A stretch of DNA of 64,000 nucleotides from a virus: the IMG/VR virus record IMGVR_UViG_3300031227_000018, positions 1 through 64,000 of that record. One strand, given 5' to 3'. This document shows positions 1 through 60,173 of the stretch, piece after piece. Numbering within the stretch: the first letter of the stretch is position 1; each line of letters starts with the position of its first letter. A program made the translations under genes and the position numbers. The notes beneath the pieces are model-generated. The model searched no databases and had not been told where the DNA came from. It worked only from the letters and a program-made list of their open reading frames with translations.

Positions 1-140
1 TATCAAGGGTTGCATTTGTTATATGGCAATGCCATGATAAAGGTGATTTTTTTGCCAAACAATGGAATAAATGGTTTATGACTAAAGAAGTTCCAGATCA
101 ACATATCATTTTGATTCAACCACGTGAGATTGAGGTATAG
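1..140 (+). CDS. 3' end of an unidentified protein (partial)
   Basis: An open frame enters from the left edge (in phase from base 3) and stops with TAG at 138-140, giving about 45 C-terminal residues ending PREIEV. The piece is rich in Trp, Phe and His, with a hydrophobic start (VAFVIWQ) followed by a polar helix. I do not recognise the family from this fragment. It is followed after 14 bases by the next gene on the same strand, so it is probably part of the same operon. Confidence 0.6.
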   Translation, partial: SRVAFVIWQCHDKGDFFAKQWNKWFMTKEVPDQHIILIQPREIEV

Positions 141-8390: not shown

Positions 8391-8999
8391 GTGAATAGCA
8401 TCAAGTCACATTGCCCAATCTTGATAAGAAATAAACTCCCTAATACAATTTGTCCTTTCGCTTTAAACTCTATCCGTAGAGCTCGCGGTGAGAATATTGT
8501 CAAATCTTTCTATTATGATATAGAGGTTTTAGAAAGGGATTGTTGTGATTGGTATATTTTAGATGAAGAATCATGTCATTGTTTCTGGAAGTTTTGGTCA
8601 AACCCTGATAATGTAAGGGAATATACGTTAGAGGAAATAGCAGCTTTAACATGTGTTACAACAGCAACGGTGTATAATATAGAGCAGAAGGCATTAGCGA
8701 AAATTGCATTAGTTTATATTAACAATGTCGATGATTTAGATTTTAAGATTGAAAACATACAAGAGTTGAAGAAGGAGTTTGAGAAGAGGTGTAGGAAGAT
8801 TAAGGAAGTTGATGAGGAGATGTATGAGACTGCAACAGTAATAAGAATTAAGGCTTATCAAAAGGGGTTTTCGTTTCACCCATCTTATTCAGAAGAACCT
8901 ACCTCAGATTTTCATTCAGTAATAAAGTCGACTCCGTTCATTCCCCAAAAACAGATGAAATTACCGATATCTTTAATGTTTGATTTTGTTAAAAATTAG
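8391..8999 (+). CDS. sigma region 4-like transcription factor (candidate late sigma factor)
   Basis: A 202-residue protein. Residues about 76-106 (YTLEEIAALTCVTTATVYNI, then EQKALAKIAL) match the helix-turn-helix of sigma-70 region 4, which reads the -35 element and ends in a conserved EQKAL/EKKAL helix. Upstream is a Cys/Trp-rich segment (CDWYIL, then CHCFWKFW) at 52-70. The C-terminal half is a basic helix (IQELKKEFEKRCRKIKEVDEEM) and a less ordered tail. No region 2 is seen, so it may work with a partner or with host sigma. The GTG start lacks an SD. A phage-type promoter overlaps its stop. Confidence 0.65.
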   Translation: MNSIKSHCPILIRNKLPNTICPFALNSIRRARGENIVKSFYYDIEVLERDCCDWYILDEESCHCFWKFWSNPDNVREYTLEEIAALTCVTTATVYNIEQKALAKIALVYINNVDDLDFKIENIQELKKEFEKRCRKIKEVDEEMYETATVIRIKAYQKGFSFHPSYSEEPTSDFHSVIKSTPFIPQKQMKLPISLMFDFVKN

Positions 9000-9018
9000 T
9001 TAGCAAAATAAGTATACT
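8990..9018 (+). promoter_or_regulatory. phage late promoter P1 (TAAAAAT-N16-TATACT)
   Basis: TAAAAAT at 8990-8996 and TATACT at 9013-9018 with 16 bases between. The site overlaps the end of the sigma-like gene and lies nine bases before ATG 9027, so a transcript starting about seven bases after the -10 box would begin next to the start codon. It is the first of ten such sites. Confidence 0.6.
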
Positions 9019-9026
9019 TTTAGCTG

Positions 9027-9227
9027 ATGATATCTATTGAACATTTATACCCAGATATTGAGGGTAGTGTAGATGCTGCCATACGTTTTCTTATTGGATT
9101 GTCTCATGACGAGACTATTGATAATCTAAAAATAACAATAGCAAAATATAAAAAGCATAATCAAAAAAGGTATCGTGTCGTTTTATCAAAGGTTTTAGTC
9201 AAAGACAAAGTGAAGGGATCAAAATGA
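9027..9227 (+). CDS. small hypothetical protein at head of capsid operon
   Basis: A 66-residue protein with no SD before ATG 9027. The -10 box of promoter P1 ends at 9018, so its mRNA may be leaderless. The N-terminal half (YPDIEGSVDAAIRFLIGLS) is helical and the C-terminal half is very basic (KYKKHNQKRYR). The stop overlaps the protease start (ATGA). It might be a small head-assembly protein by position only. Confidence 0.55.
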   Translation: MISIEHLYPDIEGSVDAAIRFLIGLSHDETIDNLKITIAKYKKHNQKRYRVVLSKVLVKDKVKGSK

Positions 9228-11419
9228 AATCCAATTTTCAAATAAGTCTCCCAGTAGAATTATGTGAGAAGTCTAAGCAAGGGTGGAAGATTAAGGGTGT
9301 CGCTTCTACTGATGACAAAGATCTTCAAGGTGAAATAGTGAAGCAGCAGGGGCTTGACTTTTCTCATATTCGTAAAGGTCTGGGGTTGTTTAACTGGAAT
9401 CATAAGAATGATCCTCAATACATATTGGGCAAGATTGATAAGGCATATCTGGATAAGCAGAATAGGAGTATCGTTGAAGGTTACCTTTTTGAGCATCAGG
9501 ATAATGCTAAGGCAATCGTCAATATAATGAAGTCATTAGAACCAGAAGATAAGCATCGTATTCAGATGTCTATTGAGGGTAAAATAGTTCAAAGAAGTGG
9601 GAATAGTGGGAGCACAATTAAGCAGGCTAAAGTGGAAAAGGTTGCACTCACTCTTGATGCTGTTAATCGAAAGACTTACACTGAATTTGCTAAGTCTCTC
9701 TTATCAGATGAAGATGTCGACACCGACGAAGATACATTAAAAAAGGTTGATATCAAAGGACTTGATGATAAGATTGAGGCATTGACGAAGATGTTGACAG
9801 TTGGAGACGGTGGGGATAAGGCTCCGGGAACAAGAAGTGGTGGGAGTGCTATCGTTGAAGAGGATCTTGATGATGATTTAACTGATGTCGGTGAAAAGAA
9901 GTGTCCTGGCAGCAAAATACGTTCAAAAGGTAAGGGAAGGGGTAAGGGTGTTGGTGAGAAAAAAGGCCCCATTGGTCGTCATGGTGATATTGATAGAAAA
10001 GGTAAGGGGCCAGCTGATAAGGCATTTGTTGATGACGATGAAAACGATAATGATGATGAATTGAAGAAGCCAACTAAGAAGGCGTTTGATCGTTGTGAAG
10101 CGATAAGGCTGTTACATAAAGCCACATGGCTTAGGATGAAAAAGGCATACCCTGATCTATCATTAGATACTATCATGCATATGACTGATAATTTGGTTGA
10201 AGAAGCTCTAGAAAAGGGTTCTAAAAAGAATATCGTAAGTGATATTAGTGGTATTGTTTCTGAGATTGTGAAACTTAAAGCGGATGATGCTGAAAAGAAT
10301 AAGAAGGAAATCATCAAACTCCATGGACAGATAGATGAAAAGCTCCATAATTATGTTGGCAAAGAGGCGTTGACTCCTGGTGAAAAAGATGGTACCAAAA
10401 AATCATTATCATTCGCTCTCGATCTTATGAAGGGTGGTAAAGGTCTTCCAGTAGGCACCATTCGCGATTGGAAGGGTCAAAAGTATAAGAAGGAGGCCGA
10501 GGGTAAGTGGGTACCAGTCAAGGATCCTGGTGATGGTGGAAAAGCTCCAGAAGGGGAAGAGAAGAAGCCAGGTGGAGTTGATGGTATCAAAGAAAAGGTT
10601 TCAGCTAAGTTGAAGGAAATCAATCAAACGATGGGGAAGCTCACGCAGGATCTTGAGGCGTTGAAGGTGTTTGATGCTGAGCAGCTTGATTTTGCTGAGG
10701 GTGACTTACCTGATGATGAGGCTCTTAATGGTATGATTGAGAGTTTGAAGGGGACGAGAGAGAAGTTGGTGACAGGACAAAAGACAAAAGATAAGAATTT
10801 GGCCAGTAAGATTGAAGGTGGAGAAGGTGTTGATTGGGAATGGTCTGAAAAATTGTTAGATAGATTAGTTGGAGATATAGAACATGGTGACATTAAATAC
10901 ACATCTGAGTATACCGATAAATTGAAAGAATTAGCAAGTGAAAGCGGGGATAAAAAGTTTTCGGAATTTGTTGACAACCTCAGTGATGCTTTGGATAATG
11001 CTGAGAAAGATGACGATGCTGACGATGAAATTGCTAATTTACAAGAATATGTTTGGAATAAGGGTAAGATTGAGGGTGGTGAAGATAAGAAGCGGTCTAG
11101 TGATATCCGTGATGCTTCTATTCATGTGGACAATATTGTTGATGAAATAAAGGATCTTGGATATACCAGCGGTGAACTGGCTAATTCAGCTAATGAACTT
11201 AGAGAGGCTCAATCGGTTTTAGAAGAAAAGAAAGATGCTCAATCCATGAGATCTTTGGCTTCTACGGCAAAAGAAATTAAAGTAAAATTAGAAGAGTACG
11301 AAGATGTTGATGATAGTAATTCGGTGTTTGAAGATATCGATGGTTTGATTGGAATAGAAATTACAGAAGGCGAAGATAAGAAAGAAGATAAGAAAGAAGA
11401 TAAGAAAGCCAAACAATAA
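9224..11419 (+). CDS. prohead protease fused to scaffold-like C-terminal region
   Basis: A 731-residue protein. Residues 1-150 match phage prohead serine proteases: a VASTDDKDLQGEIV opening, His60 in FNWNH followed by ILGKI, Ser116 in QMSIEGKI, and VALTLDAVN at 140-148. These proteases cleave scaffold and capsid proteins inside the prohead. The remaining 580 residues are low-complexity and highly charged (Lys, Asp, Glu, Gly). They include a short motif, LPVGTIRDWKGQKY (about 406-420), that recurs in phage head proteins, and long coiled-coil stretches, ending in KKEDKKEDKK repeats. The C-terminal part probably acts as scaffold and is self-processed; that is inference. Confidence 0.75.
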   Translation: MKSNFQISLPVELCEKSKQGWKIKGVASTDDKDLQGEIVKQQGLDFSHIRKGLGLFNWNHKNDPQYILGKIDKAYLDKQNRSIVEGYLFEHQDNAKAIVNIMKSLEPEDKHRIQMSIEGKIVQRSGNSGSTIKQAKVEKVALTLDAVNRKTYTEFAKSLLSDEDVDTDEDTLKKVDIKGLDDKIEALTKMLTVGDGGDKAPGTRSGGSAIVEEDLDDDLTDVGEKKCPGSKIRSKGKGRGKGVGEKKGPIGRHGDIDRKGKGPADKAFVDDDENDNDDELKKPTKKAFDRCEAIRLLHKATWLRMKKAYPDLSLDTIMHMTDNLVEEALEKGSKKNIVSDISGIVSEIVKLKADDAEKNKKEIIKLHGQIDEKLHNYVGKEALTPGEKDGTKKSLSFALDLMKGGKGLPVGTIRDWKGQKYKKEAEGKWVPVKDPGDGGKAPEGEEKKPGGVDGIKEKVSAKLKEINQTMGKLTQDLEALKVFDAEQLDFAEGDLPDDEALNGMIESLKGTREKLVTGQKTKDKNLASKIEGGEGVDWEWSEKLLDRLVGDIEHGDIKYTSEYTDKLKELASESGDKKFSEFVDNLSDALDNAEKDDDADDEIANLQEYVWNKGKIEGGEDKKRSSDIRDASIHVDNIVDEIKDLGYTSGELANSANELREAQSVLEEKKDAQSMRSLASTAKEIKVKLEEYEDVDDSNSVFEDIDGLIGIEITEGEDKKEDKKEDKKAKQ

Positions 11420-12564: not shown

Positions 12565-12593
12565 TAAAAATAAAACTTAAAAAACAATATAAT
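12565..12593 (+). promoter_or_regulatory. phage late promoter P2 (TAAAAAT-N16-TATAAT)
   Basis: TAAAAAT at 12565-12571 and a perfect TATAAT at 12588-12593 with 16 bases between, in the gap between genes ending at 12551 and starting at 12616. The downstream gene has its own SD, so the transcript has a normal short leader. Confidence 0.65.
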
Positions 12594-20226: not shown

Positions 20227-20255
20227 TAAAAATAATAGAGGCAGTAAAGTATAGT
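20227..20255 (+). promoter_or_regulatory. phage late promoter P3 (TAAAAAT-N16-TATAGT)
   Basis: TAAAAAT at 20227-20233 and TATAGT at 20250-20255, 16 bases apart, in the 110-base gap before ATG 20289. The rest of the gap is AT-rich and no terminator hairpin is seen. Confidence 0.65.
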
Positions 20256-22648: not shown

Positions 22649-22677
22649 TAAAAATTTTATGACTAAGCGAGTATAGT
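22649..22677 (+). promoter_or_regulatory. phage late promoter P4 (TAAAAAT-N16-TATAGT)
   Basis: TAAAAAT at 22649-22655 and TATAGT at 22672-22677, 16 bases apart, in the short gap before the first glycan-cassette gene (ATG 22702). It would drive the whole run of overlapping genes 22702-34265, in which no other such site is seen until P5. Confidence 0.65.
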
Positions 22678-22701: not shown

Positions 22702-23814
22702 ATGCGTATAGGAATAGTGAGTACATTTAATGTAGAATGTGGAATAAGTACTTACACTGAGCATTTAGTTGAACATTATCCGGAAGGTCAAGTCCAAATT
22801 TTTGGTAATAAACTAGGTGTTTTAACTGACACTGAAAACTGCCTTAAACACCCTATTTGCAGATGCTGGAGTCGAAAGGATGATTTAATAGAGCTTACCC
22901 ACGCTCTTATAGAATCTGATGTGGATATTGTTCATATTCAGCATGAGTTTGGGTTGTTTCAGAATCAATCAGCATTTGTAGAAATGTTGAAAAAGTTAAG
23001 AGAAAAGAAGATTCCCGTTGTAGTCACATTCCATACGATTTTCTCTGAAGACCATCTTAACAGTGCTATCCAACAAATTTCCACGTATGTTAACATAATC
23101 ATTTGTCATGGGCAAGGAGGTAAGGATGCTCTTCGAAATGTTGGAGTTAACAACACCTCATTGCTTCCTCATGGTTCTGTAAAAGTACAGGCGCGTGGGC
23201 ATGATGAAAGTCGTAAATATCTTAACATTCCTGATGATAAAACTGTTATCTTATCTTTAGGGTTCATCACCCCTAATAAGGGGGCAATGGATTCTGTTTC
23301 TGCAATTTATCGATTAAAGTATGAATTTGAAAATCTCTATTTCTTGATAGTGGGGATGCCCGTGGTTCATGACAATAACTTTGCCAACATGGAGTATTGT
23401 TTAAAACTTTTTAAACGAGTGAAAATGCTCAGTTTATTCGACACTGTTCATATATATCCTAAGTATGTCAGTGAAAAAGAAATAGATTATTATGCGGGTG
23501 CATCAGATATAGCAATAGAGAACTATTATCCAACTCATCATTCTACTTCAGGGATGAGTCATTTGGTTATGAGTTATGGCTTACCTTCTATTTCTTCAAA
23601 AGCCAATATTCTTGCTGATTTAGATTCAACAAGAAGTTTAAAATATAAAATTGGCAACATTGAAGAGATGTCGCAAAAGTTGCGTATTTTAATTCGTAAC
23701 GATGATATTAAGAAAAAATTGAAAGAAAACTGTTTAAGTTATGCTGAGGAAACTTCTTGGGATAAAACAGCAAACATACACATCGGTTTGTACAGCTCGT
23801 TGGTTGCTGAATGA
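22702..23814 (+). CDS. glycosyltransferase, family 4-like (GT-B)
   Basis: A 370-residue protein that transfers a sugar from a nucleotide donor to a glycan acceptor. The N-terminal half has GIVSTFNVECGIS and VDIVHIQHEFGLFQNQ, typical of the GT-B acceptor domain. The C-terminal half begins ILSLGFITPNKGAMDSVSAI (the usual donor-domain opening) and ends with YAGASDIAIENYYPTHHSTS, in the region where GT4 enzymes bind the donor. The canonical EX7E is not clean. It is the first gene of the cassette, under promoter P4. Confidence 0.8.
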   Translation: MRIGIVSTFNVECGISTYTEHLVEHYPEGQVQIFGNKLGVLTDTENCLKHPICRCWSRKDDLIELTHALIESDVDIVHIQHEFGLFQNQSAFVEMLKKLREKKIPVVVTFHTIFSEDHLNSAIQQISTYVNIIICHGQGGKDALRNVGVNNTSLLPHGSVKVQARGHDESRKYLNIPDDKTVILSLGFITPNKGAMDSVSAIYRLKYEFENLYFLIVGMPVVHDNNFANMEYCLKLFKRVKMLSLFDTVHIYPKYVSEKEIDYYAGASDIAIENYYPTHHSTSGMSHLVMSYGLPSISSKANILADLDSTRSLKYKIGNIEEMSQKLRILIRNDDIKKKLKENCLSYAEETSWDKTANIHIGLYSSLVAE

Positions 23815-23821
23815 GAGGGTT

Positions 23822-24880
23822 ATGGTAGAAAAAGGTTTAAGGGTGATGATTAACGGGTTTTACGGTGCTCACAATAGTGGTGATGAGGCGATGTTGCGCA
23901 ATTTTGTTTATAACATGCAAGCTCACGACCCTGAGTGCATCACATTGGTAGCCACTGATAAGGCTCAGTCATTCAACTATAAGAATGTTTATTTTGTTTC
24001 TTCAGAAGATCGTGCTCAGCTAACAGAAACGGATGCTTTTATCTTGGGTGGAGGGGATCTCACTCCAGCATTTGGGAATCAGCTTTTATTGCATGCGAAG
24101 AAAGTTGGTAATAAATGTATTATGTTGGGAGCCAGTATCAATGATGATTGGTTGTATGAAAAGATGAGGGACATTTATGTAAAGTCTTTAGAATTATTTG
24201 ATCTTATTTTTGTAAGGGATCTTCAATCTAAAGAAAATCTTGATAAGTTGGGAATAAAATGTTCAGTGAAAACTGATATATCAGTAGGTTTACCTTCTGT
24301 ACCAATAGAGTTTAAAAAAAGTGATAAGCATGTTACTTTATGCATAAGGGAAGTTCATCCTGAGTATGAAGTGCGCATGGTTGCTTTGGCAAATAAGGTT
24401 GTAAGGTTTTTGTTAAAAGAAGGGTTTACAATCACTCTACTGCCTCTTTGTTATGAAGATAAAAGGTCTTATGAGTATTTTACGAAAATTGATCCTAAGA
24501 TAGAGATGATTTACACTCTCAGCCCTCAACAGCATAAATATGTTATTGGTAATTCTGATTATGTTATTTCATTGGGTCGCCTGCATCCTTTGATATATGC
24601 TATTGATACGGTTACACCTATGTTGGGAGTGGTTTATCCTATTCTTGAAACTCCCCGCTATCATAAGATGCCCGCGTGGTTTGAGTATATCAATAATGAT
24701 TATTTGCTTAATTTTAATTTGAAGATGAAGGATTTTGAGAAAAAGTTTAGGGAGTTGAATGATCATAAAGATGAAGTTAAAAAACAGTTAGTTATTCAAA
24801 AAAAATCTCATGATAAGTGCAATAAAGAACAGTTTAACGAATTGATCAATTTTATAAAGGGAAAAAATGATAACACCTAA
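23822..24880 (+). CDS. polysaccharide pyruvyltransferase family protein
   Basis: About 352 residues. ATG 23822 is chosen because the family motif starts just after it and an SD (GAGAGGG) precedes it; the longer frame from 23741 lies inside the previous gene. VMINGFYGAHNSGDEAML is the hallmark N-terminus of the CsaB/WcaK family, which add pyruvate ketals to sugars. DAFILGGGDLTPAFGNQL and YVISLGRLHPLIYAI are further family blocks. Some members have other transferase roles, so the reaction is likely but not certain. It overlaps the next gene by 14 bases. Confidence 0.78.
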   Translation: MVEKGLRVMINGFYGAHNSGDEAMLRNFVYNMQAHDPECITLVATDKAQSFNYKNVYFVSSEDRAQLTETDAFILGGGDLTPAFGNQLLLHAKKVGNKCIMLGASINDDWLYEKMRDIYVKSLELFDLIFVRDLQSKENLDKLGIKCSVKTDISVGLPSVPIEFKKSDKHVTLCIREVHPEYEVRMVALANKVVRFLLKEGFTITLLPLCYEDKRSYEYFTKIDPKIEMIYTLSPQQHKYVIGNSDYVISLGRLHPLIYAIDTVTPMLGVVYPILETPRYHKMPAWFEYINNDYLLNFNLKMKDFEKKFRELNDHKDEVKKQLVIQKKSHDKCNKEQFNELINFIKGKNDNT

Positions 24881-25475
24881 TTCGATTAAAGAAGGGCCGC
24901 CAGAATATTATGATAACGCCTTTTCTCGTGGAACTTACCCTAATTTTTTTCAGATAGCAGGGTATGTCATGGATTCTTTGGATCGGTTTAAAAGTGGTAA
25001 ATTATGTGTAGCGGAAGCTGGCGTGAGACTTCCCGCATTTAAGCAGCCCTTTTTGGATATTGGATGCGGAATGGGTCGTGTTAGTCTGGTCGGTTATTAT
25101 GGACATGGATTACGGATAGATGGTGTGGATTTTTCTTCTTATGGTATCAATCTTGCAACATGTTACCAATTGAAGAATGTTACTTTTTATCAAAAAGACG
25201 TATGGAATTTTACTGATTATGATAAATATTCAGTTTTTATTATGACTGAATTTTTAGAACACATTAAGGACGATGTTAGGTTTATCCGAGAAAAGATTCC
25301 GTCAGGGTCGTTGGTGATAATATCGTTACCCAGTCCATTGTTTGGGGATACGTATCATTTACGTTATGCTGAATCAGTTTCTGATATTGTTAATGCATAT
25401 GAAAGTGAACTTAATTTCATCGAAGCCAAAGTCATTGGTACAGGGACTTATGGTGCAATAGCTTTGAAAAAATAA
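24867..25475 (+). CDS. SAM-dependent methyltransferase
   Basis: A 202-residue class I methyltransferase. Motif I is FLDIGCGMGRVS (about residues 63-74), followed by an acidic strand end (RIDGVDFSSYG), then VFIMTEFLEHI for motif IV. Its length and its place among glycosyltransferases suggest it methylates a sugar or a small intermediate. The target cannot be read from sequence. It overlaps the pyruvyltransferase gene and is two bases from the next gene. Confidence 0.82.
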   Translation: MITPNSIKEGPPEYYDNAFSRGTYPNFFQIAGYVMDSLDRFKSGKLCVAEAGVRLPAFKQPFLDIGCGMGRVSLVGYYGHGLRIDGVDFSSYGINLATCYQLKNVTFYQKDVWNFTDYDKYSVFIMTEFLEHIKDDVRFIREKIPSGSLVIISLPSPLFGDTYHLRYAESVSDIVNAYESELNFIEAKVIGTGTYGAIALKK

Positions 25476-25476
25476 A

Positions 25477-26466
25477 ATGAAAATAACAATTGCAATAAAT
25501 ACAGCTCAGGTGGATTATCCTTATACGGCTTTTCCAAACACTCATTTATTCGAATTAACAATGAGAAGTTTGAGAGAACAAACTTTCAGGGATTTTGAGG
25601 TAGTCGTAGCGGATGTAAATTATGATGAGCGAAAAGACTATTTCAAAGAAAATCCTGAAGATTTCCCAATTAACCATGTTAAAATTAAACCTAATGTGTG
25701 GATTCCGTTCAATCATTTCGCTATTTCAACGACAAAAAACACTTGTCTATTACACGCTAAAGGCGGTATTGTTGCTTCTATTGGTAGTTGTGTTAGGTTT
25801 GATAAGCACTTTGTAGAAAAGGTTGTTGAGGGGGTTGAAGATGGAAATTGTATTATAAGTAGATTTTCGATTGAACGAGGCGATGAAATTGTTTTTAAAG
25901 ATTTGCGACCTGATGATGCTGTATCTGTTCACGGCAATGTGGCAGCTTCAATGGAAGATTGGTTACTCATTAACGGGTACGATGAAATGTATGACGGTTC
26001 CAAAGGGATAGAAGATTGTGATGTTGGAGAAAGACTTTTAAGAGCTGAGAAGGAAATTAAAATGATTGATGGGGGAGTGGTATACGAAGATCATATCACT
26101 TGTTATCCGTTGTTGACAAAATCTCCAAGATTTCAAAAGTGTCAATTTTTATGGTGGACAATTTCTGCTGATAGAAAACAGATTGCTGCGAATAAGAATT
26201 CCTTAACGGATCTTGAATATGATTATTTACAGTCTTGTAAGTATGGAGATACAAGAAGATTTTGTTTGAGAAATTTAAGGTGTATGTATTGTTCCGAAGA
26301 TTTTGAATGTTTTTTTGGAAAGTCGGCTCATTTAACAAAACTCTATATGCATCCTTCATTGATATTTGATTTAAAAGAACAGCAAAAGAATCCAAGGTTA
26401 GCAGTTAAAAGGTTAGCGAAACTTTGTGAAATTGATAATCTTAAAAAATTTGTCGGAGAAGTGTGA
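25477..26466 (+). CDS. glycosyltransferase family 2-like (GT-A), paralogue A, altered DXD
   Basis: A 329-residue protein. It opens with KITIAINTAQVDYPYTAFPN and SLREQTFRDFEVVVADVNYDERK, the typical GT2 nucleotide-binding start. The acceptor-side motif is KGIEDCDVGERLL (about 182-194). Where paralogues at 26986 and 30946 have an acidic pair (FDDCS, TDDYS), this copy has ASIGSCVRF with no Asp, so metal binding or activity may differ. It shares a C-terminal HPSLIFDLKE segment with the other two copies. The start follows the methyltransferase stop directly. Confidence 0.75.
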   Translation: MKITIAINTAQVDYPYTAFPNTHLFELTMRSLREQTFRDFEVVVADVNYDERKDYFKENPEDFPINHVKIKPNVWIPFNHFAISTTKNTCLLHAKGGIVASIGSCVRFDKHFVEKVVEGVEDGNCIISRFSIERGDEIVFKDLRPDDAVSVHGNVAASMEDWLLINGYDEMYDGSKGIEDCDVGERLLRAEKEIKMIDGGVVYEDHITCYPLLTKSPRFQKCQFLWWTISADRKQIAANKNSLTDLEYDYLQSCKYGDTRRFCLRNLRCMYCSEDFECFFGKSAHLTKLYMHPSLIFDLKEQQKNPRLAVKRLAKLCEIDNLKKFVGEV

Positions 26467-26477
26467 GGGGTAAGGTC

Positions 26478-26996
26478 ATGGAAGATCATTTTCAAGAAAG
26501 ATATGTCAAGCATCAACAGCAAAAAGGGGAAGTCTTGCAGCAAATTGTGGAGGAAAGACATTCTAGTAGGATCTTTTCTGATAAAACAGTGAGTGGGGAG
26601 GATATTGACACGTTACTCGCCCACTCACTATATTGCCCTTCTTCTTGTAATAGGCATGCGATTGAATTATCTATTATTAGTGATAAGGATCTTAAGAATT
26701 TATTAGGCGGAATATTGGTGGGTGGGGTTGGTTGGATAAATAGAGCAAGCCATATCATCCTTATTTTTGCTGATTCTGTTGCTTATAAAGCTGGAGATGA
26801 AGTTAAGTTTATGCCATATTTGGATGCTGGAATCATTATTCATCAATTGTATTTAACTTCTGCTGCATTAAGGTTGAAGTGTTGTTATGTGAATCCCAAC
26901 ATTAGAGAAATGAATTATGATCATTTCAAGAAGGTTTTTAGTGATAAAATATTTTGTGGGGCATTCGCAATAGGGAAAGAGGTGAGTGTTGCCTAA
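26478..26996 (+). CDS. nitroreductase family flavoprotein
   Basis: About 172 residues. ATG 26478 is chosen because the SD (GAGGGGTAAGG) lies between it and GTG 26463. HSSRIFSDKTVSGEDIDTLL near residues 26-45 and HSLYCPSSCNRHAIEL just after are the classical FMN-binding start of the nitroreductase fold. YLDAGIIIHQLYLTSAALRLKC (about 112-133) is the conserved dimer helix. It would use FMN and NAD(P)H. Its role in a glycan cassette is unclear. It overlaps the next gene. Confidence 0.75.
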   Translation: MEDHFQERYVKHQQQKGEVLQQIVEERHSSRIFSDKTVSGEDIDTLLAHSLYCPSSCNRHAIELSIISDKDLKNLLGGILVGGVGWINRASHIILIFADSVAYKAGDEVKFMPYLDAGIIIHQLYLTSAALRLKCCYVNPNIREMNYDHFKKVFSDKIFCGAFAIGKEVSVA

Positions 26997-28047
26997 AATC
27001 AGTGTGATATACACGACCGCAAGAGGTGATTGTCCAATGAGGGAGAGGCCTGGGGTGAATCAATTTTCTGTATTTTTGGATTCTCTTGAAGAACAGGTGT
27101 TTAAAGAAGAAATTGAAGTGATCATTGTTGATGCATTGAAAGATGTGAAAATAGAAAATTCAAAATTGCCTGCGTATTTAACTGAACGTAAAGAATATAA
27201 TTTTTCTAAGTATTCTTTTCCTGTAAAGCACATCAAACCTCTTCCAAGTTGGTGGTTGGAACATGGGTTCAGTTCTTATTGTCATTGTGTTAATAGCGGT
27301 ATTATTGCAGCAGATGGAGAATTGATTATTTTATTTGATGATTGTTCAAAGATAATGGGAAGAGAAAATATAAAATTGCAATGGGAATGGTATAAAAAAG
27401 GTGATGGTAAGCAGTTTGCAAGATCTATTTATGAATATTGGATTGGGGATAAACCAAGATTGAATTCTGTTGAAGGAAAGCCGTCGTTTGGGAAAATTGT
27501 AAGGCATATGAGTTATGACCGTTTAGAAGAAAAAAATAAATTGTATATAGAAGAGGAATCATTTGGTTCTTATGGGTATTATTCCTTTAGTTTGGATGTA
27601 ATTTTAGCACTCAATGGATACAATGAATTGTTTGATGGAGCTAAAGGTGCAGAAGATTTTGATATTGGCAATCGTTTAATGGCTTATGGTTGTAGGTCTA
27701 TCGTAGATATGAGATTGAGGGTAGTAGAGTTTTCTCATTATTCCACTGCGTTTCATGGTTTGAATGTTGGGGTGGGAAGAAAAAACAATGTTTCCACTCA
27801 CGAAGCACTTTTGCATCTTTGGGAGCCTGATTGGAAGGATCGTGTTCGGGAGAAAAAAACTTTTATAAAAGCGAATGATAGACCTATGACCGAACAAGAA
27901 TACAATTATATGTTAGAAAGGAACAAGGTTTATGTTCCTAATTTTGTAGAAGATGAAGTCATTAAAAGAATGAAAACTCATCCACCAATTTTTGATTTAA
28001 AAGATTTGAGGAAAAAATATCGTGAAGGGTTCTATAACGAGAAATAA
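26986..28047 (+). CDS. glycosyltransferase family 2-like (GT-A), paralogue B
   Basis: A 353-residue protein starting at GTG 26986 (TTG 26989 is also possible) with an SD (AGGGAAAGAGG) upstream. It opens with PKISVIYTTARGDCPMR and has FLDSLEEQVFKEEIEVIIVD, typical of GT2. The acidic motif LIILFDDCSKIM (about 116-127) is the likely metal site, and AKGAEDFDIGNRL is the acceptor-side motif. The C-terminus has HPPIFDLKDLRKKY, shared with the copies at 25477 and 30946. It transfers a sugar; the substrate is unknown. Confidence 0.8.
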   Translation: MLPKISVIYTTARGDCPMRERPGVNQFSVFLDSLEEQVFKEEIEVIIVDALKDVKIENSKLPAYLTERKEYNFSKYSFPVKHIKPLPSWWLEHGFSSYCHCVNSGIIAADGELIILFDDCSKIMGRENIKLQWEWYKKGDGKQFARSIYEYWIGDKPRLNSVEGKPSFGKIVRHMSYDRLEEKNKLYIEEESFGSYGYYSFSLDVILALNGYNELFDGAKGAEDFDIGNRLMAYGCRSIVDMRLRVVEFSHYSTAFHGLNVGVGRKNNVSTHEALLHLWEPDWKDRVREKKTFIKANDRPMTEQEYNYMLERNKVYVPNFVEDEVIKRMKTHPPIFDLKDLRKKYREGFYNEK

Positions 28048-28627
28048 AAAGATTAAAGAACGTATTTACATTACTAAAGACGAGCTAGAATCTATTGAAA
28101 GTGGGCTGTCTTTAGATGCTCATATTCAACGATACGGATTTGTTCGTCAATATGCTCATGGGAATGTTTTGGATTGTGCGTGTGGATGCGGTTATGGAAC
28201 TTATATGTTATCAAAGAACCCTGATGTTGAATCAATTGTTGGGGTGGATGTTTTAAAGGGAGCGATTGAGTATGCGAACCTTCATTTTACTAATGATAAA
28301 GTTTCTTTTAGGTGTGGCGATATCGGGAAGATGGTATTGTTGAAACAGGTTGATCAGTTGATTTCTATTGAAACAATTGAGCATCTTCAGTATCCCTTGG
28401 ATTTAATAAATATGGTTGTAAAGAATAATATAAACGAGTTGATCATTTCGTTCCCAACCAAAAAATCAACTCATTACAATAAATACCATTACCATGATTT
28501 TACCTTTAATGACATTAAAATGTTATTAAGTGATCAATACAGAATAAGAGATTCGTTTGAATACAAAAGAGAAGTTGGGTTTGTTTTTTGTGTTCGATCA
28601 AAACTACAAGAAAGGAATAAGAAATGA
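28022..28627 (+). CDS. SAM-dependent methyltransferase
   Basis: A 201-residue class I methyltransferase starting at GTG 28022, inside the end of the previous gene. Motif I is VLDCACGCGYGTYML (about residues 50-64), then IVGVDVLKGAIEYA with the acidic SAM-binding residue, then VDQLISIETIEHLQYPLDL as motif IV. The Cys-rich motif I is slightly unusual. The substrate is probably a sugar or lipid-linked glycan, by neighbourhood. The stop overlaps the sulfotransferase start as ATGA. Confidence 0.8.
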   Translation: MKGSITRNKKIKERIYITKDELESIESGLSLDAHIQRYGFVRQYAHGNVLDCACGCGYGTYMLSKNPDVESIVGVDVLKGAIEYANLHFTNDKVSFRCGDIGKMVLLKQVDQLISIETIEHLQYPLDLINMVVKNNINELIISFPTKKSTHYNKYHYHDFTFNDIKMLLSDQYRIRDSFEYKREVGFVFCVRSKLQERNKK

Positions 28628-29391
28628 CAAAAGAAAAGTACAGTCAAATAGCGGAGATCACCACACCACCTCCACAAACTCCTTGGAATAAAGATACTAA
28701 TAATCTTAGTTACGTTTATTTTCCAAACTTAAAAACAGTTTATTGTATCACTTATCGAACAGCATCTACGTTCATTAAGAGATGGCTTTATAAGTGTGAG
28801 AATAACCTTGAAGAAACGGATGTCACTACAGCTACAGTTCCAATTCATCAATTAAAATGGAATCGTTTGACACCATTGCAAGTTTTGGATAAAAAAGATT
28901 GTTTAAGGTTCGCAGTCATTAGGCATCCAATAGACAAAATGTTGTCAATGTTCTATTGTTCTGTTTATAATAGGCCATATGATTTTAGATGGTGGAAAAG
29001 GTATTTGCCAAACCGTAAAAATAATCACGTTTCTTTTGATGAATTTATGGAAGTGATTGCAGAAAGAACTGTTGATTGGGAAAATGCTGATATACATTGT
29101 TTTAATCAAAGCAGTTTACTAACTCATGATGACAAATATTTACCTACTCACATAGGTCTTTACAGTGACATTGAAAAGTTTTTGGCAAACATAGCAAAAA
29201 TTAAGAATATTCTTCCTCCAGATTTTAATAAAAAGATTAACACTTCAGCGTATTGTTTGTACACTAAAGAAAAACGATCTGAGGTTTCTAAATATGCGAA
29301 AAAAATGATTGAAAAAAGATACGAGAAAGATTATGAATTGTATGATAAAGTTAAAAAATCGGGAGGGATGTTATTATGTCAAAAGACATGA
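28624..29391 (+). CDS. sulfotransferase (PAPS-dependent)
   Basis: A 255-residue protein of the sulfotransferase fold, which moves sulfate from PAPS to a hydroxyl or amine on a sugar. The 5'-phosphosulfate loop is seen as TYRTASTFIKRWL (43-55), and the 3'-phosphate motif as FAVIRHPIDKMLSMFY (96-111), with Arg100 and Ser108 in the conserved places. SYVYFPNLKTVYCIT before the loop is the usual first strand. The next gene is an APS kinase, which makes PAPS, so donor synthesis and use are encoded side by side. The acceptor is unknown. Confidence 0.82.
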   Translation: MTKEKYSQIAEITTPPPQTPWNKDTNNLSYVYFPNLKTVYCITYRTASTFIKRWLYKCENNLEETDVTTATVPIHQLKWNRLTPLQVLDKKDCLRFAVIRHPIDKMLSMFYCSVYNRPYDFRWWKRYLPNRKNNHVSFDEFMEVIAERTVDWENADIHCFNQSSLLTHDDKYLPTHIGLYSDIEKFLANIAKIKNILPPDFNKKINTSAYCLYTKEKRSEVSKYAKKMIEKRYEKDYELYDKVKKSGGMLLCQKT

Positions 29392-29927
29392 CTTGGTTTA
29401 CCATTATGTCACAAAAAGTAATTTGGTTCACTGGACTCCCTTGTAGTGGGAAAACAACCGTGGCTGATTTGGTGGCAGAAGAATTGCATCGTTTTAATGT
29501 ATACCCTGTTCGATTAGATGGTGATGTTGTTAGAAAAGGGCTTTGTAAGGAGTTGGGGTTTTCTAAAGAAGATAGGCGTAAAAATTTAGAACGGATTGGT
29601 TATGTTTGTGAAATTTTGAGTAACAGTAATGTTTTAACATTAGCCACTTTCGTTTCTCCTTACAGAGAAACAAGGGATTGGTTGAGGGAAAAAGTTGGTG
29701 AAGAAAATTTTGTTGAAGTTTATTGTAAATGTTCTGTTGAAGAATGTATCCGACGAGATGTGAAAGGAATGTATGCAAAAGCACTTAAAGGGGAGATTAA
29801 GGGTTTCACGGGCGTGGATGATCCTTATGAAGTGCCTCAAGAAGCTGAAATTGTTTTGGATACAGAGCGGGAAGAACCAAATGATAGCGGAAGAAGAGTT
29901 CTGGAAAGGATTCTTTTTAAACGATGA
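29376..29927 (+). CDS. cysC: adenylylsulfate kinase (APS kinase)
   Basis: A 183-residue enzyme that phosphorylates APS to PAPS with ATP. P-loop GLPCSGKT is at 20-27, then LDGD (47-50), GFSKEDRRKNLERIG (61-75), FVSPYRETR (92-100) and the substrate lid VKGMYAKALKGEIKGFTG (129-146) followed by VDDPYEVP. All are family signatures in order. Full length is normal. ATG 29376 is supported by SD GGGAGGG (29361-29367), although ATG 29406 is also possible. It overlaps the sulfotransferase by 16 bases. No ATP sulfurylase is seen nearby, so APS would come from the host. Confidence 0.92.
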   Translation: MSKDMTWFTIMSQKVIWFTGLPCSGKTTVADLVAEELHRFNVYPVRLDGDVVRKGLCKELGFSKEDRRKNLERIGYVCEILSNSNVLTLATFVSPYRETRDWLREKVGEENFVEVYCKCSVEECIRRDVKGMYAKALKGEIKGFTGVDDPYEVPQEAEIVLDTEREEPNDSGRRVLERILFKR

Positions 29928-30148
29928 AGAAGTTAAGAAAAATTAAACTTGGTACATTAGGGGTATCGGGTATTTTTTACCGTATTCATATTATCATTCT
30001 TCAATCGATTTTTTTCTACATTCTCACAGGGGAGTGGAAATGGGCGATAGGAACTTCGATATTATGGAATGCCATTTGCACATTGTTATATTATAATTAC
30101 CATTATTGGTTTGCTAGGTTATTCAAAATAGGGAGGAATAATGAGTGA
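29924..30148 (+). CDS. DUF2061-like small membrane protein
   Basis: A 74-residue protein with two hydrophobic segments (IHIIILQSIFFYILTG, 21-36, and AIGTSILWNAICTLLYY, 41-57) and an N-terminal basic region. The pattern YRIHxxILQ, then ILTGEWKWAIG, then LLYYNYHYWFARL resembles DUF2061 proteins, which I recall as often encoded beside or fused to cysC-type genes. The start overlaps the cysC stop (ATGA). A role in sulfate or PAPS handling at the membrane is possible but unproven. Confidence 0.6.
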   Translation: MKKLRKIKLGTLGVSGIFYRIHIIILQSIFFYILTGEWKWAIGTSILWNAICTLLYYNYHYWFARLFKIGRNNE

Positions 30149-30584
30149 AGAAATAAAAACAATAAAACACATCATGGACGTCCAGGGGTTCATTTCAATT
30201 ATAGTGGGTGAATTGGAAACGAGAGCAAGATTTCATGATAGGTCGAAGCTATATTCTCCTGAAGTAGAAACATTTGATGTTTATTCTAAGAAGCTCAAGG
30301 GGTGTACTTATAATAGCGAGGAGTATAAGCAGTTTTTAAAAGGGATGAAGCCAGCTTTAGATCATCATTATGCTGAAAATAATCATCATCCAGAACATTG
30401 GGAAAATGGCATTGCCGATATGGATTTGGTTGATTTAACAGAGATGCTTTGCGATTGGAAGGCTGCTACACTTAGGCATGATGATGGGGATTTAATAAAA
30501 AGTATAGAGCAAAATCAAAAGAGATTTGGATACTCTAACGATATAAAAAAGCTGTTATTAAAAACGGCAAGGAGATTAAAATGA
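30141..30584 (+). CDS. DUF5662-like (HD-type) protein
   Basis: A 147-residue protein overlapping the DUF2061-like gene by eight bases. HDRSKLYSPE (about 33-42), HHYAENNHHPEHW (74-86) and LTEMLCDWKAATLRHDDG (98-115) form the His/Asp pattern of DUF5662, a family found in phages and bacteria that looks like an HD-domain metal-dependent hydrolase. The substrate is unknown. The neighbourhood suggests nucleotide or sulfation metabolism, but that is weak. Confidence 0.65.
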   Translation: MSEEIKTIKHIMDVQGFISIIVGELETRARFHDRSKLYSPEVETFDVYSKKLKGCTYNSEEYKQFLKGMKPALDHHYAENNHHPEHWENGIADMDLVDLTEMLCDWKAATLRHDDGDLIKSIEQNQKRFGYSNDIKKLLLKTARRLK

Positions 30585-30949
30585 GGAGCATGTTTATTGG
30601 TCGATATCAACCGTTTCATGAGGGTCATTTTACGCTCATTAATGAGGTGTTGAAGGAAGAAGGTGGCAAGGTGTTAATTGCTTTGCGTGATACACCTATC
30701 CGGAATACAGATCCTTATTCCATTGAAGAGCGTATTGAAGTGATTAAGGTTTATTTTCCTGATGCAGTTTTTTATCCTTACGAAAACGGTTGGAAAAGTG
30801 CTGACGTGGTTATTGTAGGCATTCCCGACATAGGTGAAGTTTGTTATGGACGAAAGGTTGGATGGGGTATGAGGGAAATCAAGTTGGATGAAAAAACAGA
30901 AGCAATTTCAGCAACGAAGATTAGAGCAAATATGAAAGAAGAGAAATGA
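30581..30949 (+). CDS. nucleotidyltransferase (HxGH family, NMNAT/cytidylyltransferase-like)
   Basis: A 122-residue protein. FIGRYQPFHEGHFTLI (5-20) contains the HxGH ATP-binding motif after the first strand, GKVLIALRDT follows, and ISATKIR (about 109-115) is the ISxT-type motif that closes the active site. This is the minimal fold of NMN adenylyltransferase, phosphopantetheine adenylyltransferase and cytidylyltransferases. The substrate cannot be told. It overlaps both neighbours by four bases and lies three genes after cysC. It might activate a sugar, an alcohol or a cofactor precursor. Confidence 0.75.
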   Translation: MRSMFIGRYQPFHEGHFTLINEVLKEEGGKVLIALRDTPIRNTDPYSIEERIEVIKVYFPDAVFYPYENGWKSADVVIVGIPDIGEVCYGRKVGWGMREIKLDEKTEAISATKIRANMKEEK

Positions 30950-31941
30950 AAATTTCGGTTTGCATGAATACAGCACGTGCCGATAGATGTACGGGAAGGG
31001 AAACAAATTTCCATATTTTTGAATATCTCATGGAGGGGTTGAGGGAACAAACTTTTAAGGATTTTGAAGTTGTTATTTGTGATGTTTTGTGGGAACAAAG
31101 AAAAACATATTTCATAGATCATCCAGAAAAATTCCCAATAAAACATATTCCACCAAAACCAAACATATGGGTTCCTAACGGTTACTGTGCTATTTCTACA
31201 ACTAAGAATACTTGTTTACTTTATGCGCAAGGTGAAGTTGTAGTTTTTACAGATGATTATTCGACTTTTTCTCCAAAACATTTGGAACTTATTGTTGATA
31301 AAGTCACTGAAACACACTGTGTTGCCAACACTTATAATATTTATGCAGATGACGAGTTGGTGCATAGGGACAGGAGGAGGTCTGCACGCAATTTAGTTAC
31401 TTACGGGAATATAGCATTGTACCTTGAAAGATTTTTAGATCTCAATGGTTATTGTGAAATGTATGATGGTTCAAGGGGGTTAGAAGATTGTGATATGGGG
31501 GTTAGGATGCTTAGGAGTGGAATGACCACTGAATTGATACAATATCCTGTAAAGTATCAGCGTCACATTGAAAATTATCCATTACAAAAGAAAAGCAATA
31601 TAAAATGTCCGAGATTAGCCGAAACTTTATCCAACAATGATTATAGAAAAGGCATTCATCGAGCGAATGAGATTCCCTACACTGATGAAGAAATGAAGAT
31701 ACTTTTTGAATGTTCTAATATTGTTCAAGGTCATAGATGTAAATATGTTGATAAGCATGGAAAACCTGTAGTATGTACTAGCGGTTTTATTGAAGGTGGT
31801 AATCCTAGATACAGTGATACACATTTAATTGATAAGTTCACCAGACATCCATCATTACTTTTTAGCCTTAAAGAAATGAGAAAAGACGTCCCAATGGCTT
31901 TAGAGAAGCTAAAGGATGTTTGTAAAGACATGTTGCCTTAA
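30946..31941 (+). CDS. glycosyltransferase family 2-like (GT-A), paralogue C
   Basis: A 331-residue close paralogue of the gene at 25477 (shared KISVCMNTARAD-like start, LREQTFKDFEVVICDVLWEQRK, FPIKHIPPKPNIWVP, STTKNTCLLYAQG). Unlike that copy it keeps an acidic pair in VVFTDDYSTF (about 95-104). The acceptor-side motif is RGLEDCDMGVRML and the C-terminus has HPSLLFSLKEMRK. It transfers a sugar; donor and acceptor are unknown. The start overlaps the previous stop (ATGA). Confidence 0.8.
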   Translation: MKISVCMNTARADRCTGRETNFHIFEYLMEGLREQTFKDFEVVICDVLWEQRKTYFIDHPEKFPIKHIPPKPNIWVPNGYCAISTTKNTCLLYAQGEVVVFTDDYSTFSPKHLELIVDKVTETHCVANTYNIYADDELVHRDRRRSARNLVTYGNIALYLERFLDLNGYCEMYDGSRGLEDCDMGVRMLRSGMTTELIQYPVKYQRHIENYPLQKKSNIKCPRLAETLSNNDYRKGIHRANEIPYTDEEMKILFECSNIVQGHRCKYVDKHGKPVVCTSGFIEGGNPRYSDTHLIDKFTRHPSLLFSLKEMRKDVPMALEKLKDVCKDMLP

Positions 31942-31953
31942 AGGAGGTTGATT

Positions 31954-32502
31954 ATGCCAGTTTCGTATCATGAAGGTTATGATTGTTTTAAAAAACTTAT
32001 TGAAATGTATCAACCAGAAGATTTGTTGGATGTTGGAATGGGTTATGGTAATATAGGAAGTATGGCTCAAATTATTATGCCAAGACTTGAACTTAATGGT
32101 ATTGAAATTTGGTTGCCGTACCTTAGTCATGAAAATTCTCAGGCAAAAAGATATAAAAGAATATTCTTGGCAGATATCAAAGATATGATTGGTAAACTTT
32201 GGCCTGTTGATATTGTAGTTGCGTGGGATGTGATAGAACACCTCGAAAGGGAAGAGGGGATTAATGTTATATATTATTTAAAATCAATCGCAGAAAAAAG
32301 TTTGTTAATAAGTCTTCCAATTATCGATTATCCACAAGGCGCAGTTTATGGAAATAATGCTGAGATTCATAAGACTCAATGGAAAGTTGAAGAGATGGAA
32401 GAATTAGGTGCGGAAACAGTGTTTAAGGGTAAAGTGATTGGGGTTTTTGAATTTAAAAGAAGTACAACAGAAAGAGAGGGTAACGATCATGATAGAAGAT
32501 AA
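31954..32502 (+). CDS. SAM-dependent methyltransferase-like protein
   Basis: About 182 residues. ATG 31954 is chosen because SD AAGGAGG (31941-31947) is well placed. LLDVGMGYGNIGSMA (about residues 25-39) is motif I, LNGIEIWLPY carries the acidic residue, and VDIVVAWDVIEHLEREEG is motif IV. It is short for the fold but complete. It is likely a small-molecule or sugar methyltransferase. It overlaps the next gene by 14 bases. Confidence 0.72.
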   Translation: MPVSYHEGYDCFKKLIEMYQPEDLLDVGMGYGNIGSMAQIIMPRLELNGIEIWLPYLSHENSQAKRYKRIFLADIKDMIGKLWPVDIVVAWDVIEHLEREEGINVIYYLKSIAEKSLLISLPIIDYPQGAVYGNNAEIHKTQWKVEEMEELGAETVFKGKVIGVFEFKRSTTEREGNDHDRR

Positions 32503-33286
32503 GAAAATGAAAAAGAAAGCAAACAATAAGAAGGTGAAAGATACGAATGATAAGGCGGAAGTCGTAAGTCAATTTGGACCGGATTATTATAATGAAGATT
32601 ATTACGTAACTCCGGATGGTAAAAAGTTTGAAACTCCTGATGGTGAAACTTTAGGATGGAGTTATCAGAATCCTGATGGTGAGTTTTTGGGTGCTGATGA
32701 TATTGTAAAGGCGTGGAAATTGGTGTTTGATCCAAAGAAAATGTTGGACGTAGGGGCTGGGCGGGGAACATTTGTGGCATACGCTCATAATTATGACATA
32801 GAAGCGGTGGGTTTTGATTTTTCATCGTGGGCTGTAGGCGACAAGGGAAGGTACCCGAACTGTAAGGCTGACTGGTTGGAACAACACGATGCCACGAAAC
32901 CTTGGCCATATAAAGACAATCAATTTGATATGGTAACATGCTTGGATTTGTTGGAACATATTTATGAAGAAGATATTCAATTTGTTATTGATGAAATGTG
33001 TCGAGTTTCCAAGAAGTATATTTTCTTGCAGATTGCCAGTTTGCCCCATGATGAAGGTGTTTGTTTTAAGAAGGGTCAGAAGATCCCTGTTCAGTGGCAA
33101 GGTTGTGCTGTTGCTGGTCATGTGATTATTCAGCCTAAGAAATGGTGGATTAAAAAAATGTATCGGAATGGTTGGAAAATGAATAAAAATATATTGGATT
33201 GGTTTTTGAGTGTAATGGATAGTGATGTCATTTCTAATTGGTTACAAAACACTATTGTAGTTATGGAGAAAGAAAATGACAAATAA
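32489..33286 (+). CDS. SAM-dependent methyltransferase
   Basis: About 265 residues. ATG 32489 is chosen because SD GAGAGGG lies just before it; the longer frame from 32438 is inside the previous gene. The first 25 residues are very basic. MLDVGAGRGTFVAYA (about residues 85-99) is motif I, AVGFDFSSWAVG carries the acidic residue, and FDMVTCLDLLEHIYEED is motif IV. The pattern resembles methyltransferases in polysaccharide clusters. It overlaps the next glycosyltransferase gene. Confidence 0.8.
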   Translation: MIEDKKMKKKANNKKVKDTNDKAEVVSQFGPDYYNEDYYVTPDGKKFETPDGETLGWSYQNPDGEFLGADDIVKAWKLVFDPKKMLDVGAGRGTFVAYAHNYDIEAVGFDFSSWAVGDKGRYPNCKADWLEQHDATKPWPYKDNQFDMVTCLDLLEHIYEEDIQFVIDEMCRVSKKYIFLQIASLPHDEGVCFKKGQKIPVQWQGCAVAGHVIIQPKKWWIKKMYRNGWKMNKNILDWFLSVMDSDVISNWLQNTIVVMEKENDK

Positions 33287-34265
33287 TTTATTGCCCTATA
33301 AGAGTTCCACACCAATTCATTTTTATAAAAGGGAAGATCATTCTTCAATTGATATTGTTGGCGGTAAGATTTTTGAACAAATGAAAGAACATGGCTATAG
33401 TGTAGAATTGAGATCGGCTAACAATGTTAATAAGCCAGAAATAAATCCAGTGGATGTTGGGATTGTTTATGGGCTCGTTCGAGATTTAAAGAAGTTGTCT
33501 CGATATAAAATAAAAGTGGCGGGGTTAGTTTGTGAAGAAGAATTGACTCCTCATAATATTGAGTTAATTGAAGAAGCTGATTTAGATCAAATATGGGTGC
33601 CGAGTGAGTTTGTGGCGAACTTTTTTGTTCAAGCTGGATTTACAGAAAAGGTTACTGTTGTACCGCATGGAATAGACGATTCCCCTATTATTGAATGTAA
33701 AAATAATGGGGAAAGATTCGTAGGTTTAATGATATACAATTCATACAATAGATTGAATGATCACGTAAAGAGAAAGAATCCGTTTAAGGCGGTCGAAGCT
33801 GTTAACTCTTTAAATGGATCGTTAGACCTTTTGTTGAGATTAAAAACAAAGCATCAAGGGTATTACAATAAATATGATTTAAAAAGGGTCGAATTTATTG
33901 ATCAATATTTTGAAAATGTGGATGAATTATATAGAGAGTGCAATTTTGTACTTTATCCGTCAGATTCGGAAGGTTTTGGGCTAATTGGCTTGGAGTGTTT
34001 GATGAGAGGAATTCCATTGATTTCCACTAAAACTGGTAACGATTATCTGGATAAAGATATCGAGTATGTCCACATTGAATTACCAGTGACCGTAGAAAAG
34101 ATTAAAGCAGCTATTTTGAAAATGGTGAGTAATTATCAATACTATAGAAAGCAATCCATTCAACAAAGGGATTTACTTTATTCTAGGTTTTCTTGGCCTG
34201 AGATTGGTAAAAAAGTTGATATCACTATGAGTAAAATTATACGTAAAATTTATGGGGTAAAGTAA
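33276..34265 (+). CDS. glycosyltransferase, family 1/4-like (GT-B)
   Basis: A 329-residue protein. IWVPSEFVANFFVQAGF followed by VTVVPHGID is the typical linker between the two GT-B domains, and CNFVLYPSDSEGFGLIGLEC (about 220-239) holds the EGFGLIGLE version of EX7E that binds the donor phosphate. It transfers a sugar from a nucleotide donor. It is the last gene of the glycan cassette. Its stop codon is part of the -35 element of promoter P5. Confidence 0.85.
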   Translation: MTNNLLPYKSSTPIHFYKREDHSSIDIVGGKIFEQMKEHGYSVELRSANNVNKPEINPVDVGIVYGLVRDLKKLSRYKIKVAGLVCEEELTPHNIELIEEADLDQIWVPSEFVANFFVQAGFTEKVTVVPHGIDDSPIIECKNNGERFVGLMIYNSYNRLNDHVKRKNPFKAVEAVNSLNGSLDLLLRLKTKHQGYYNKYDLKRVEFIDQYFENVDELYRECNFVLYPSDSEGFGLIGLECLMRGIPLISTKTGNDYLDKDIEYVHIELPVTVEKIKAAILKMVSNYQYYRKQSIQQRDLLYSRFSWPEIGKKVDITMSKIIRKIYGVK

Positions 34266-34291
34266 AAATCTCAAATAAGAAAAGGTATACT
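34263..34291 (+). promoter_or_regulatory. phage late promoter P5 (TAAAAAT-N16-TATACT)
   Basis: TAAAAAT at 34263-34269 (overlapping the TAA stop of the previous gene) and TATACT at 34286-34291, 16 bases apart. ATG 34302 lies ten bases after the -10 box, with no SD in between. Confidence 0.6.
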
Positions 34292-34572: not shown

Positions 34573-34601
34573 TAAAAATAACAAATAAAAGAGGGTATAA
34601 T
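34573..34601 (+). promoter_or_regulatory. phage late promoter P6 (TAAAAAT-N16-TATAAT)
   Basis: TAAAAAT at 34573-34579 and a perfect TATAAT at 34596-34601, 16 bases apart, in the gap before the scaffold candidate and the major capsid gene. This gives the capsid genes a strong promoter of their own, only about 300 bases after P5. The transcript would carry a leader of about 46 bases with SD AAAGGAG. Confidence 0.7.
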
Positions 34602-41669: not shown

Positions 41670-41698
41670 TAAAAATTAGAGGCGAGAAGGACTATAAT
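41670..41698 (+). promoter_or_regulatory. phage late promoter P8 (TAAAAAT-N16-TATAAT)
   Basis: TAAAAAT at 41670-41676 (overlapping the previous stop) and a perfect TATAAT at 41693-41698, 16 bases apart. ATG 41705 lies exactly seven bases after the -10 box start of the spacer, so the transcript is expected to begin at the start codon. Confidence 0.65.
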
Positions 41699-60147: not shown

Positions 60148-60173
60148 AAGTTTTTTAAGATATAAAATATAGT
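60145..60173 (+). promoter_or_regulatory. phage late promoter P10 (TAAAAGT-N16-TATAGT)
   Basis: TAAAAGT at 60145-60151 (overlapping the previous stop) and TATAGT at 60168-60173 with the same 16-base spacing. One base of the -35 box differs. It heads the fibre genes 60194-62802, and the leader holds SD GAGGAG. Confidence 0.55.

Follow-up and report, generated by a model that had tools for sequence, protein, structure and literature searches.

The closest described counterpart of the gene analysed here is the two-subunit sigma factor SigO-RsoA (YvrI-YvrHa) of Bacillus subtilis (PMC8103513), which is a nearer analogue than gp55 and gp33 of phage T4, where late transcription likewise depends on a sigma factor split in two and gp33 occupies the site of sigma domain 4 without recognizing a DNA sequence (PMC2988020). 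Likeness is also seen to T4 MotA/AsiA, in which the -10 element is still read by the host sigma factor, with a phage protein recognizing a new element around -35 (PMC11598898), and to gp28 and gp33/gp34 of SPO1, phage sigma factors with which the promoter class is changed. How late genes are switched on in SPO1-like myoviruses outside the model phages is poorly understood, and the late promoters and the late factor of phage K are still unknown (PMC11598898). Here we describe a stretch of 64,000 nucleotides (the window; positions 1 to 64,000 of IMG/VR record IMGVR_UViG_3300031227_000018) from an uncultured phage of 109 kb, a distant virion relative of SPO1 (28% identity of the capsid proteins). 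Just 5' of its virion genes, at 8391-8999 on the plus strand, lies a gene for a protein of 202 residues that resembles a stand-alone sigma region 4.

The reading that we favor, at about an even chance of being correct, is that this protein is a detached sigma domain 4 that reads a heptamer, TAAAA(A/G)T, and that region 2 of another protein, most likely the primary sigma factor of the host, reads the -10 element. Sigma domain 4 normally sits on the beta flap of RNA polymerase, and the phage-made domain would dock on the host enzyme, probably at this very site, and recognize the heptamer at -35, with the other protein's region 2 recognizing TATA(A/C/G)T 16 bp downstream. Together, both halves would act as a two-part sigma factor and switch on the virion genes. 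We infer flap docking, heptamer recognition, use of the host sigma factor and the timing of these events from the observations described below.

A region 4-like protein and its family

The gene starts with GTG, and its open reading frame (ORF) contains no further in-frame start upstream before a stop codon. Placement of the start is supported by a homologue (locus L095), the ATG of which aligns at the same position. The protein was delineated by ORF, Pfam/PHROG and family evidence and consists of an N-terminal segment (8412-8582, plus strand) with four invariant cysteines, C8, C21, C52 and C64, in a zinc-site-like arrangement (CP..CP...C.W...C.WK), a helical region 4-like domain comprising residues 63-112 (8577-8726, plus strand), and a C-terminal extension of residues 113-202 (8727-8996, plus strand) that is mostly missing from related proteins. 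The four cysteines are predicted to bind a metal, putatively zinc. In a Pfam scan the protein matched a single family, Sigma70_r4, at residues 75-105 (8613-8705), with an E-value of 0.0034 and a score of 17.3 bits, which for this sequence alone lies below the gathering cut-off of 24.1. The helix-turn-helix (HTH) at this position is the only place in the contig that matches Sigma70_r4. The PHROG family annotated as 'RNA polymerase sigma factor' also matches the protein (E 1.7e-4), and weak matches to the transcriptional regulators phrog_8 and phrog_36, which we take to be of the ArpU/RinA type, cover the HTH and the residues just past it (E 0.0047 and 0.022). Among solved structures, Thermus SigA domain 4 was one of the best sequence matches, without reaching significance (E 0.25). 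Region 4.2 retains its packing residues (TLEEIA..VT....IE.KAL.K). At the positions equivalent to R584, E585, R588 and Q589 of Escherichia coli sigma-70, which contact the -35 sequence TTGACA, the phage protein carries T, A, Y and N, as expected for a -35 element other than TTGACA. A sequence-only reading of the window had recognized the region 4 HTH and had seen no region 2 in the protein; indeed, Pfam detected no Sigma70_r2 match in it.

Evidence for region 4 from this one sequence is thin and becomes solid at the level of the family. Using the neighboring prohead protease as a bait, followed by iterated searches, we collected relatives of the protein and aligned 31 members (alignment A6). 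One of these is a 135-residue ORF directly 5' of the protease gene (L095), which shares 35% identity with the window protein over 118 residues (E 8e-23). Judging from these sequences, the protein is one of more than 30 that make up an undescribed family encoded by uncultured phages. All four cysteines (window numbering) are present in every one of the 31 aligned members and are followed by the HTH. When the members were scanned individually at E<=1, Sigma70_r4 matched 20 of the 31 (best E 1.6e-6); the next Pfam family, Sigma70_r3, was found in 5/31, such that Sigma70_r4 alone recurs widely. The family proteins tested had no convincing match in INPHARED phages, no PHROG family covered them, and a search of genome contigs for the window protein and its homologues yielded nothing convincing. 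A capsid-based search for relatives of the phage retrieved 80 contigs, 31 records of which were searched with the window protein as a single sequence; no convincing homologue was found and the one weak match covered 34 residues (E 0.004).

Structure prediction, which the sequence-only reading had suggested as a check, did not return the unrelated fold that would have contradicted region 4. A model calculated with AlphaFold2 (AF2) from the single sequence was unusable (predicted local distance difference test, pLDDT, 36) and was set aside. With the family alignment as input, AF2 placed helices at residues 63-70, 80-87 and 91-112, with pLDDT values of about 76-87 across the HTH and poor values for the remainder. 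Local confidence is thus good for the expected HTH helices, and Foldseek ranked domain 4 of Staphylococcus aureus sigma-A first among PDB entries, but this match is weak (probability 0.47, E 1.1). Several other sigma chains also appeared in the Foldseek list, none of them significant.

Late promoters and gene neighborhood

The contig contains nine copies of the pattern TAAAA(A/G)T-N16-TATA(A/C/G)T, always on the plus strand and always at a gene junction. All nine pairs of heptamer and -10 element are spaced by 16 bp, and pairs with other spacings between 8 and 26 bp are essentially absent. First-order Markov shuffles predict 0.15 copies of the full pattern per genome on both strands. The pattern was written after viewing the sites and the position weight matrix was built from them, so that matrix scores are not an independent test, in contrast to the comparison of spacings and the occurrence in relatives. 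The heptamer spans -35 to -29, and the -10 element is host-like.

The first of these promoters (TAAAAAT-N16-TATACT, 8990-9018) coincides with the 3' end of the family gene, just as had been noted from the sequence: its heptamer (8990-8996) overlaps the final codons, TATACT follows at 9013-9018, and transcription is predicted to start 1-2 nt before the ATG at 9027. The capsid-upstream copy (TAAAAAT-N16-TATAAT, 34573-34601) is located 5' of the gene that precedes the major capsid gene, and both of its elements are invariant in relatives; here four sequences, of which two are identical, share TATAAT and the heptamer in the longer form TAAAAATAA, and the spacer has drifted. The pattern search also retrieved, again with TAAAAAT and N16, sites at 12565-12593 (TATAAT), 20227-20255 (TATAGT), 22649-22677 (TATAGT, identical in G001, a record of the same phage), 34263-34291 (TATACT) and 41670-41698 (TATAAT, with a start codon 6 nt past the -10 element and a predicted leaderless transcript), and a site with the variant TAAAAGT-N16-TATAGT at 60145-60173, all on the plus strand. 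Predicted late transcripts begin 0-4 nt before the start codons at 9027, 34302 and 41705 and, because the sites lie so close to start codons, several transcripts are predicted to be leaderless or nearly so.

In relatives, the pattern was counted six times in G001, four times in G002, twice in G003 and once in G004, each time on the strand that carries the capsid gene and with no match for the reversed pattern. A further 28 records (27 more distant ones and phage Mx1) contained one match altogether. Heptamer and -10 element are retained in relatives with 63-67% capsid identity, in which the spacer drifts. A second promoter-like class, AATAGTTTTTTAYTTT-N15-TAWARK, is found outside the window (L002-L004), mostly 5' of replication-side genes, at contig positions 66840 and 68132 (both minus strand), 68147, 70270, 78249, 85296 (one mismatch), 99438 and 105578; its upstream element occurs in seven exact copies, compared with none in 20 second-order shuffles.

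The place of the gene between small genes and virion genes, as proposed from the sequence alone, agrees with our findings. The next large gene (9224-11419, plus strand) encodes a prohead protease-like protein, with a 66-residue ORF (9027-9227) between the two, and a homologue of the protease gene directly follows the family gene in three other contigs. The family gene therefore precedes the protease gene in four genomes (the window phage, G032, G049 and G050). It lies close to the protease gene on the opposite strand in G036 and G038, and comes after a stretch reaching from portal to a ClpP-like gene in G033 (names read from translations). Across these genomes, the position of the family gene among the head genes is conserved. 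A run of genes resembling glycosyltransferases, methyltransferases and kinases (22702-34265; names likewise from translations) is embedded in the virion region of the window. Beyond the window, we noted genes for a chaperonin (Cpn60, L002:4254-6029) and for a gp45-like clamp with clamp loader (L002:6549-8797), as well as one tRNA-Glu gene (L002:1223-1296).

The search for a region 2 partner

The first and last 127 bases of the contig (window positions 1-127 and the end of L004) are identical, and the record therefore probably represents a complete, circularly assembled genome of 109,091 bp. No match to Sigma70_r2 was found in the whole contig at E<=10. In T4 the same search picked up a gp55-like place (E 0.0045), and it gave three matches in SPO1 and a single one in Mx1; a partner as divergent as these should thus have been revealed. 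The genome also lacks phrog_1025, the family of SPO1 gp34, and the Mx1 sigma factor used as a query gave no significant match among the proteins of the contig.

Two other phages of the family encode RpoD-like sigma factors of 228 (G045, L175:1384-2070) and 229 residues (G066, L230:1141-1830, minus strand) that terminate within region 4.1 and have no region 4.2 HTH. The alignment of the G045 protein with SigA extends over regions 2-3 as far as region 4.1, where the protein ends, and that from G066 stops at the same motif; a separate domain 4 would be required at exactly this point. A frameshift is an unlikely cause of the short G045 protein, as the downstream frames contain no HTH and the G066 protein ends alike. 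The annotated 'putative sigma' of Mx1 ends at the same point in region 4.1, and no recognizable member of the four-cysteine family was found in Mx1. Extending our reading to the whole family, we tentatively propose, as something possible though short of probable, that zinc-binding stand-alone sigma-4 proteins pair with sigma factors without region 4.2, either truncated RpoD-like proteins of the phage or, as in the window phage, a host sigma factor with its domain 4 displaced, and thereby form a modular means of swapping the -35 specificity of RNA polymerase for late genes.

Comparison with the described systems sets the phage apart from each of them. SigO-RsoA is cellular and both of its halves are encoded in one genome, whereas no region 2 partner was found in the window phage; to our knowledge, SigO-RsoA has no four-cysteine segment. 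The comparison with T4 gp55/gp33 drawn in the sequence-only reading applies as far as the split late sigma factor is concerned but not fully, since gp33 recognizes no DNA sequence. Late promoters of T4 have a -10-type element only, while the window phage combines a strict -35 heptamer and an HTH protein, and no gp55-like region 2 was found in it. MotA, unlike the window protein, is not a homologue of sigma region 4, and no AsiA-like protein was identified in the phage, although no search was aimed at AsiA. SPO1 gp34 is a sigma factor with a region 2 match; SPO1 gp33 falls into a PHROG family of unassigned function (phrog_13510 was tested), and the window protein has no match to gp33 families. 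The sigma factors of G045, G066 and Mx1 represent the complementary half, comprising regions 2-3 and ending in 4.1, and no gene of this kind was found in the window phage. The protein is best filed as a split-sigma variant, outside the gp33 and SPO1 families and outside the complete sigma factors. The description given by the sequence-only reading is borne out and strengthened by our analysis, and its interpretation is plausible and supported in part.

Alternatives and implications

Several observations weigh against a domain 4 that reads the heptamer. The single-sequence Pfam score and the fold match to sigma-A domain 4 are both weak, as stated above. The promoters on the virion strand of G045 look like an extended -10 element, GGTATAAT, without a -35 element, which is easier to reconcile with a coactivator than with a -35 reader. 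G032, G049 and G050 carry the family protein and not the TAAAA(A/G)T heptamer, and no -35 element could be established for G049 and G050; GTAGTATATAAT recurs three times in G049, too few for defining one. Co-occurrence of protein and heptamer can be seen in the window phage only, because the fragments G002-G004, which carry the heptamer, start downstream of the place of the gene. The second promoter class indicates that a second activator probably exists, and the assignment of the heptamer could thus be swapped. The recognition helix differs in the G049 and G050 proteins, which fits the lack of this heptamer in the two phages, and motif searches in G036, G038 and G039 did not find a bipartite late promoter. 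In G045 (loci L187-L195) we further observed 15 copies of the promoter-like ACCGATTCGA, all on the same strand and many a short distance 5' of a start codon.

The main rival, which we judge unlikely, is a gp33-like coactivator that sits on the beta flap without reading DNA, the heptamer being read by something else or reflecting a spacer or upstream contact. T4 gp33, described as a flap-bound mimic of sigma domain 4 that recognizes no sequence (PMC2988020), provides the precedent, the window phage has a gp45-like clamp with clamp loader, and G045 combines virion-strand promoters without -35 element with a sigma factor without region 4.2; some members of the family may indeed act like gp33. For the window phage, this explanation is at odds with the strict -35 heptamer of its clade and with the retention of an HTH of the DNA-binding type, and profile A6 matches T4 only at E 0.012, at 166260-166394 on the minus strand, a place not identified as gene 33. 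An ordinary MotA- or ArpU/RinA-like activator or repressor that binds elsewhere, possibly at the AATAGTTTTTTAYTTT class, and is no part of a sigma factor appears distinctly improbable to us. The weak matches to phrog_36 and phrog_8, the occurrence of region 4-like HTHs in regulators other than sigma factors and the strong conservation of the second promoter class speak for it, but across the family no match other than sigma region 4 recurs widely, the gene is kept beside head genes and not replication genes, and two phages of the family carry sigma factors without region 4.2. Very improbable, finally, is that an alternative host sigma factor or an unrecognized phage sigma factor reads the late promoters and that the gene has nothing to do with them: the -10 element TATAVT is host-like and sigma factors beyond recognition are possible, yet the sites all precede genes of the virion side, share one strand and are conserved along with the phage clade, and the genome contains no Sigma70_r2 match even though divergent ones were detected in the control phages.

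A single, apparently complete genome here provides both a candidate factor, the proposed detached domain 4, and an exact promoter, and relatives of this protein occur in dozens of uncultured phages. Should the protein read the -35 element alone, the two DNA-reading halves of a sigma factor could be supplied by different organisms, and the protein would be a minimal part for redirecting RNA polymerase.
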